A DNA stretch of 64,000 bases from Halapricum desulfuricans (lineage in GTDB: Archaea; Halobacteriota; Halobacteria; Halobacteriales; Haloarculaceae), in the NCBI RefSeq assembly GCF_017094465.1, contig NZ_CP064791.1:1364001-1428000 (forward strand). The letters are read 5' to 3'. Each line of letters starts with the position of its first letter. Positions within the stretch are counted from its first letter, which is position 1. The position numbers were made by a program, and so were the translations under genes. Positions 21,457-27,619 of this stretch are shown here, piece by piece. The notes beneath the pieces are model-generated. The model had not been told where the DNA came from. It worked only from the letters and a program-made list of their open reading frames with translations, and ran no database searches.

Positions 21457-21586
21457 GAGTGTACCATAGTGATAGTCGGCATCCGAGAGAAGTTAAATCG
21501 TCGCCAGGCGAGGAGTTCTCCGGCGCTGATCGCTTCCGTAGGAGGTTTAAACGTCCTCGAATAACCACCAACCGCACAACACGGGT

Positions 21587-21670
21587 GCGAGGGTAGCCAA
21601 GCCTGGAAACGGCGGCGGACTCAAGATCCGCTCCCGTAGGGGTCCAAGGGTTCAAATCCCTTCCCTCGCA
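21587..21670 (+). tRNA. tRNA-Leu (anticodon CAA)
   Basis: An 84-base class II tRNA with acceptor pairs GCGAGGG (21587-21593) and CCCTCGC (21663-21669), anticodon CAA at 21622-21624 within CTCAAGA, a long variable arm and T-arm GGTTCAAATCC. The discriminator is A and CCA is not encoded. There is no intron. Copies of its 3' end follow downstream. Confidence 0.95.
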
Positions 21671-21809
21671 TCGCTGTGAGGCCCACATCGGGCCGAGCAA
21701 GATGCACTCGGAAGGGTTTGAACGAGAGAACGTCTGCGTTCGCGTAGTTCAAATCCCTTCCCTCGCATCGAAAGATGCGGAAGACTGGCCGGAGCGGTCT
21801 TCCCTCGCA
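21650..21809 (+). repeat. Direct and inverted copies of the tRNA-Leu 3' end
   Basis: The last 21 bases of the tRNA plus TCG (21650-21673, starting GTTCAAATCCCTTCCCTCGC) recur exactly at 21747-21770, 97 bases on. Between them at 21711-21723 is GAAGGGTTTGAAC, an inverted copy with one base missing, which could pair with the second direct copy. A third, ten-base scrap TTCCCTCGCA is at 21800-21809. The rest of this stretch up to the next gene at 21915 shows nothing else. Confidence 0.8.
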
Positions 21810-27206: not shown

Positions 27207-27546
27207 GTCCGGGTGCGAGAATCGAACCGGAACCAGACGTGCTCGCTTCGCTGCGCGCGACTGGTAGGGCTCGATTCTCTGAGGACTTCTGCGGCTCGCG
27301 GGTTGCTCGCGGCAAGAAAGTCCGGGTGCGAGAATCGAACCACGGTCGGACGTGCTCGTTGCACTGCGCGCGACCTCCCTGATTAGGTTCTCGACGGACT
27401 GCTGTCGCTCACGAATTGTTCGCGACAAGACAGGTCCGGGTGCGAGAATCGAACCGGAACCAGACGTGCTCGCTCCGCTGCGCGCGACTGGTAGGGTTCG
27501 ATTCTCTGACGACTTCTACGGCTCGCTGTTTGCTCGCCGCAAGAAG
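27207..27546 (-). repeat. Tandem array of three units containing the tRNA-His 3' end
   Basis: GTCCGGGTGCGAGAATCGAA, the complement of the tRNA-His 3' end, occurs at 27207, 27320 and 27433, and again in the real tRNA at 27547. Spacing is 113, 113 and 114 bases. Each unit also has an inverted T-arm copy (for example GGGTTCGATTCTCT at about 27494) and two potential hairpins. Units 1 and 3 are close relatives; unit 2 is more diverged. Upstream from 27074 to 27206 is non-coding, with a faint fourth copy at most. Confidence 0.85.
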
Positions 27547-27619
27547 GTCCGGGTGCGAGAATCGAACCCGCGTCCCAGCCTCCACAAGGCTGGAGGATAA
27601 CCACTACCCCAACCCGGAC
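27547..27619 (-). tRNA. tRNA-His (anticodon GTG)
   Basis: The minus strand folds as a tRNA with anticodon stem CAGCC/GGCTG, loop TTGTGGA and anticodon GTG. The acceptor has eight pairs, GTCCGGGT with ACCCGGAC, so the extra G at position -1 is encoded (27619) and faces C73 (27547), as expected for tRNA-His. CCA is not encoded and there is no intron. Confidence 0.95.

Follow-up and report, generated by a model that had tools for sequence, protein, structure and literature searches.

What process leaves copies of the 3' end of a tRNA gene, one direct and one inverted, in the DNA immediately downstream of that gene? The question is raised by the tRNA-Leu(CAA) gene of Halapricum desulfuricans, and we sought to answer it from the stretch of 64,000 nucleotides that contains it (the window, G000:C1:1364001-1428000), from the whole 2.88 Mb genome, which holds 45 tRNA matches, and from related genomes. 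The original prediction was that an exact 24-base direct copy of the tRNA-Leu 3' end stands 97 bases downstream, that an inverted copy lies between the two and that a further scrap follows. Checked letter by letter, the 24-mer GTTCAAATCCCTTCCCTCGCATCG occupies 21650-21673 and returns exactly at 21747-21770, with a start-to-start spacing of 97; the inverted copy is indeed present between the direct copies, and the scrap proved to be the end of a shrunken second module. The features of the locus, together with those of the neighbouring tRNA-His array and of a recombinase gene in the window, are as follows.

21586-21672, + strand: tRNA-Leu(CAA) gene (ARAGORN; the Rfam tRNA match covers 21587-21670)
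21649-21670, + strand: tail of tRNA-Leu(CAA), G52 to N73 by T-loop register
21650-21673, + strand: copy 1 of the 24-nt direct repeat, from the T-loop to just beyond the discriminator (sequence)
21671-21709, + strand: hairpin 1 region (stems GCATC/GATGC and GGCCC/GGGCC around the tRNA end) and spacer up to the inverted tail
21703-21723, - strand: inverted tail of Leu module 1, with its best-paired part, GGAAGGGTTTGAAC, at 21710-21723 and a TGC at 21703-21705 facing the tRNA 3' end
21724-21746, + strand: hairpin 2 of Leu module 1, in a short form (GAACG/CGTTC)
21747-21770, + strand: copy 2 of the 24-nt direct repeat, exact, which closes Leu module 1 (21671-21767)
21768-21809, + strand: shrunken second Leu module (our own reading of the sequence), with palindromes GCATC/GATGC and GGAAGAC/GTCTTCC, ending in the 11-nt CTTCCCTCGCA (21799-21809)
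27546-27618, - strand: tRNA-His(GTG) gene, the neighbouring case
27434-27546, - strand: tRNA-His module 1
27320-27433, - strand: tRNA-His module 2
27207-27319, - strand: tRNA-His module 3
1-345, - strand: 5' part of a gene for a Xer-like tyrosine recombinase of 346 aa (whole gene G000:C1:1363308-1364345)

In local alignment, the direct copy at the Leu locus scored 46; on that flank no tail of another tRNA exceeded 32, and the gene's own tail scored 13 upstream. The inverted copy taken alone was borderline, with a score of 23 versus 22 for the best other tail. The strand from 21650 to 21742 is predicted to fold with an energy of −26.5 kcal/mol (DNA parameters; z −5.77), which none of 200 shuffles equalled. 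No integrase gene was found between tRNA-Leu and tRNA-His in the window. Elsewhere in the window, Rfam sot0042 (sense overlapping transcript) matches 1540-1728 on the + strand with 88.7 bits, at a gathering score of 88 bits.

For each of the 45 tRNAs, we aligned the 3'-terminal 32 nt with 400 nt of its own flank downstream and upstream, and the tails of all the remaining tRNAs served as the control. An own direct copy with a score of at least 30 was found downstream of 21 of the 45 genes, so that the layout is shown by other tRNAs of the genome as well, and the highest own-tail score upstream was 21. Across the 45 genes, own tails outranked other tails downstream in the direct (mean percentile 0.76, p 3e-6) and in the inverted orientation (mean percentile 0.70, p 5e-5), and no own-tail preference was seen upstream (mean percentiles 0.46 and 0.49). 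The inverted copy is therefore better than chance over the tRNAs of the genome and borderline for tRNA-Leu by itself. The earlier suggestion that the same process had acted on another tRNA understated the case, since about half of the tRNA genes of the genome, and nearly all sampled Halobacteriales genomes, are involved. That the Leu layout is not a simple duplication of the tRNA-His array was upheld, and such a duplication is ruled out, as hairpin 1 is never common to different tRNAs within a genome (none of 1332 same-genome pairs from different tRNAs exceeds 0.7 similarity).

We extracted 26 modules from this genome, of which 23 were aligned and three odd ones dropped. The aligned modules share a common plan in which the tRNA tail (G52-N73) is followed by hairpin 1, an inverted tail, hairpin 2 and a copy of the tail; they are 97-148 nt long, typically around 120 nt, and arrays hold up to four modules. 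Strong folds are a feature of the modules, with z between −2.9 and −5.9. Over 108 copies, the direct copy spans G52/G53 to the discriminator N73 and has sharp ends: agreement with the tRNA rises from 0.39 at position 51 to 0.77 at 52 and 0.85 at 53, stays at 0.81-0.99 over 54 to 73 (0.94 at 73) and drops to 0.58 at +1. The 11-nt core of the inverted copy, located without using the host tRNA, agrees with that tRNA at 978 of 1122 positions (102 of 104 modules), and none of 5000 permutations of tRNA identity reached this value (mean 904, maximum 943). The inverted copy thus tracks the variants of its host tRNA and is not generic.

The inverted copy also runs through the tail into hairpin 1 and forms one long stem with a recurrent unpaired centre. 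In 101 modules, pairing is 0.83-0.98 at positions 54-63, lies at chance over positions 66-69 (0.478 versus 0.527 for a foreign acceptor) and recovers over 70-73 (0.624 versus 0.550, p 1e-4), with position 73 at 0.82 versus 0.62. Hairpin 1 is specific to its tRNA, so a whole module does not simply jump between tRNAs, whereas hairpin 2 falls into families common to several tRNAs (29 pairs from different tRNAs above 0.75, including 8 within one genome). In 15 of 217 module tails, at several tRNAs, the T-loop is an odd one of 8 bases, TTCACAAT, always joined to a tRNA-specific 3' part, which places a junction in or just after the T-loop.

A covariance model, R1, was built from the 23 modules and applied with a threshold of E<=0.001. 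It matches Leu module 1 (G000:C1:1385670-1385767, E 5.8e-7) and gives 29 matches in this genome, 27 of them within about 0.4 kb downstream of a tRNA gene; of the remaining two, one is a distal portion of the Lys-ctt array and the other a module that an integrated element has displaced. The Lys-ctt array (L094, L077) is itself interrupted by about 1.2 kb that, read by eye, seem to carry a small secreted-protein gene, and it is also broken by a second palindromic repeat type of about 165 nt, which is present after tRNA-Arg(CCT) and the tRNA-Phe module of the same genome too.

All six genomes of the genus hold between 21 and 41 R1 matches each, and at least one match is present in 114 of 116 Halobacteriales genomes, in counts (about 30 candidates scored per genome) that favour similar modules since R1 derives from this genome. 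A phylum-wide sample gave R1 in 16 of 17 members of the order and in none of 83 other genomes. Haloarcula, Haloferax, Halorubrum, Natrialba, Halobacterium and Haloterrigena are holders among the matches listed, Haloferax being represented there by species such as Haloferax elongans and H. larsenii. A pattern search returned at least 120 stretches; in the 82 matches read (81 loci and the viral L162), a same-strand tRNA lies within 1.5 kb upstream in 64, and the other 18 include three bacterial chance matches and several at contig edges. In the stretches of three genus members, 84 of 89 R1 matches lie no more than 800 nt downstream of a tRNA gene on the same strand. Among the five exceptions, L332 shares some bases with its tRNA, and L302, L305, L340 and L346 are preceded by a complete or partial tail copy, the tRNA being outside the stretch. 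L162, L171, L220 and L235 were left out of one step of the comparative module analysis.

G020 and G057 are the two genomes of the 116 with no R1 match, and own-tail copies were found at none of the 8 and 9 tRNAs examined in them. Two early-branching genomes, G019 and G021, have one R1 match each and own-tail copies at 4 of 10 and 1 of 7 tRNAs examined, some accompanied by clear inverted copies; in their plan (L374, L392) a hairpin and then an inverted tail stand between two tails, and the hairpins bear no sequence relation to R1.

The number of modules at the same tRNA varies erratically between congeneric species. For three of these, G001, G002 and G004, we compared stretches picked from module and tRNA matches (36, 30 and 17 tRNAs, respectively), so the comparisons sample those genomes by match and are no full census of them. 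Clean differences of whole modules were found at Ser-gga (1 versus 0), Val-gac (1 versus 0), Arg-tcg (2 versus 0), Leu-gag (2 versus 1), Leu-taa (3 versus 1) and Ser-tga (4 versus 2). Among 74 comparisons of more against fewer modules, the distal flank was alignable in 26, the remainder being too diverged or rearranged, and not all of the 26 begin exactly at the copy end. Tail identity by position along the arrays was 19.74, 19.58, 20.0 and 19.5 of 21; as there is no trend, an age polarity along arrays was rejected. Loss of modules through recombination of one tail with another would account for the pattern of presence and absence just as well.

If a sense-strand RNA were under selection, its stems would be expected to contain more G.U than A.C, and the two were counted in three ways, over all stems, over the core alone and by position. 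Among 196 of 208 distinct modules, hairpin 1 has 23 G.T against 35 A.C, i.e. no excess of G.T, and the whole core, the tail stem, has 143 G.T against 34 A.C. By position, with tails carrying TTCACAAT left out since they shift the register, the excess of the core is concentrated at the hairpin-2 end (51 versus 2), where the tRNA-fixed bases G, G, T and T allow only G.T, and the core interior is balanced, at 11 versus 12. We read the stem pairing as acting at the level of DNA, with some room for RNA.

In search of an enzyme, we considered the Xer-like recombinase at the start of the window. Its gene is present in 116 of 116 Halobacteriales genomes, usually in single copy (L364 606-1646), and its best NCBIfam match is archaeal XerA, below the cut-off of that model. 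The module-free G020 and G057 carry the gene as well, so it is a candidate only, and the proposal that it decides the presence or absence of modules was rejected, the gene being in all 116 genomes. PF00589 has seven matches in this genome; two were classified, and the one of 311 aa scored far below the cut-offs of integron integrase models.

Integrase genes do occur near modules, six of them at about 0.2-0.7 kb. In L126 (1079-11832, genome G003), tRNA-Phe and its module are separated by an integrated element of 10.5 kb that carries an integrase, and the repeat of the element reaches further 5' than the module copies do. This arrangement indicates that such elements use the copy in the tRNA gene, displacing modules outward, and that integrases adjoining modules need not be the modules' own; the idea that modules are the att sites of resident integrases was rejected on this ground. 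The sequences of L123, L124 and L129 fit an element between tRNA and module, and in L122, where an integrase follows a tRNA-Leu module, a distal copy was looked for and not found. Carriage of modules by viruses or plasmids was also rejected, since they are nearly absent from the phage, viral and plasmid collections searched: the pattern matched one IMG/VR contig, close to its end, the only phage match is confined to tRNA sequence, and a weak tRNA-His-like match on a 363-kb plasmid of Haloarcula halophila (NZ_CP119561.1; L365 1501-1556) has no tRNA listed nearby, in a gene table that lists no RNA genes.

Several known systems resemble the modules in part. Elements of the CTX-phage type carry a host recombination site twice, in inverted orientation, and as single-stranded DNA the two copies would fold into a single site. 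The direct and inverted copies of the modules would fold in the same way, but the modules have no phage genome, tRNA tails stand in place of dif and the host enzyme is a candidate. REP/BIME sequences with their RAYT form mosaic arrays of alternating palindromes; the modules differ from them in being tied to tRNA genes, in matching each tRNA and in needing no Y1 transposase. MITEs differ as well, since what the modules duplicate is a constant tRNA segment of 22 nt, and their inverted copy is internal and not terminal. Integron attC sites are conserved in structure more than in sequence, and their palindrome folds from one strand into two paired boxes (PMC4792948). The modules are similar in their strand geometry, with paired boxes around an unpaired centre, and in tandem insertion at one site; unlike integrons, they leave at 97-148 nt no room for a cassette gene and target the tRNA T-loop, each copying its own target, and no integron integrase was found among the two PF00589 matches classified here. 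Integrative elements that target tRNAs likewise make a direct repeat of the tRNA 3' end and leave the tRNA intact (PMC8371274); the modules, of about 120 nt, hold no integrase or cargo between repeats, their inverted copy is obligatory and they are found at about half of the tRNAs. In the accessible part of their description (PMC3119063), the PATE and SMR repeats of Haloquadratum are small mobile palindromes without genes, 52 to about 110 bp long, that target other mobile elements or short oligonucleotides without target duplication, and no tRNA link is given there, whereas the modules follow tRNA genes. Integron arrays, REP/RAYT, MITEs and integrative elements each fail at least one defining feature tested. 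We found no published description of such modules in the literature searched, most subscription journals being outside its coverage, so that this lack is no proof of novelty; the modules would be a new class of element if no description exists beyond that literature.

Taken together, these data lead us to favour, tentatively and at rather less than an even chance, modules that are DNA-level insertions specific to the 3' ends of Halobacteriales tRNA genes and spread by site-specific recombination at the T-loop, with an enzyme and a reaction that would be as follows. One strand of the module would fold into a rod. Its tail and inverted tail would together make up a recombination site, with a paired T-loop box, an unpaired centre at about 64-71 and a second paired box of base 73 and the foot of hairpin 1. 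This geometry, an unpaired centre between two paired boxes, is that of attC and CTX-phage sites, and insertion of a folded single strand is favoured for this reason. A tyrosine recombinase, for which the host Xer-like protein is an available candidate, would join the folded site to the tRNA gene by a crossover in or just after the T-loop; insertion would thus keep the tRNA intact and duplicate its tail, repeated insertion would build arrays and recombination between tail copies would remove modules. The specificity of hairpin 1 may reflect fold-back copying of the local flank, which would merge this mechanism with replication-based origins. What we infer from the layout comprises the folded form of the substrate, the enzyme, the direction in which modules change and any circle.

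An origin in replication or repair, with no dedicated recombinase, would have fold-back template switching, prompted by the T-arm and by downstream palindromes, create and perfect the inverted copies (quasipalindrome correction) and slippage between tails generate the tandem units. It accounts for a hairpin 1 that is local to its tRNA, for the near-identical tandem units within arrays such as that of Leu-taa in G001 and for the lack of a sense-strand preference in hairpin 1 and the core interior; yet hairpin-2 families and the odd T-loop are common to different tRNAs, the copies have fixed ends (52/53 and 73), the middle of the stem has remained unpaired and uncorrected, and the modules are confined to one order although T-arms are universal, so that we consider this origin unlikely. 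The tail copy could also be an old attR and the hairpins leftover attP arms, i.e. remnants of ordinary tRNA-targeting integrative elements. The segment from the T-loop to the 3' end is a known type of integrase target (PMC8371274), and integrated elements with integrases do occupy the same tRNAs, but gene-free modules of such uniform plan at about 20 tRNAs, with an inverted tail every time, are difficult to explain as debris, as are the order of tRNA-Phe, element and module in L126 with its repeat reaching further 5' and the scarcity of modules in phage, viral and plasmid collections; we regard remnants as quite unlikely.

A structured RNA in the tRNA trailer, whose inverted tail would switch its pairing between the tRNA tail and the copy downstream and thereby control tRNA processing or termination, would suit the fixed position and strand after tRNA genes, the strong folds and the G.T excess of the whole core. 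The missing excess in hairpin 1 and the core interior argues against it, an erratic presence among congeners would be odd for a function of the given tRNA, and T-rich starts directly after the tRNA suggest that transcription may terminate before the module, which makes this a very unlikely account. Spread of REP/BIME-like palindromes by a Y1 transposase (RAYT or IS200) agrees with alternating palindromes in mosaic arrays, and haloarchaea carry IS605 elements and palindrome-associated repeats (PMC3119063). Nevertheless, Y1_Tnp (PF01797) has no match in 45 of the 116 genomes, among them G056, G124, G027, G029 and G037 with 19-28 module matches each, and is present in the module-free G020 and G057; on this distribution a RAYT or IS200 transposase was rejected as the mover, and we give this route almost no credence. 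Integrase remnants, REP/RAYT and an RNA function all fit less well than insertion modules.

In its fullest form, which we hold to be possible and somewhat doubtful, the reading of the modules as insertions describes a minimal, gene-free mobile DNA of about 120 nt that folds into a rod, is customised for each tRNA by the direct and inverted copies of its 3' end and enters in the form of a folded single strand through the action of a host tyrosine recombinase, every tRNA tail being a potential integron-like platform. The modules shape the flanks of tRNA genes and the attachment sites used by viruses and plasmids, and they affect how tRNA fragments are annotated. The Xer-like recombinase found throughout the order is a candidate enzyme that is directly testable, and if the folded-strand mechanism is true, the modules would represent a gene-free archaeal equivalent of recombination at integron attC sites, in which the evolution of single-strand recombination could be studied.
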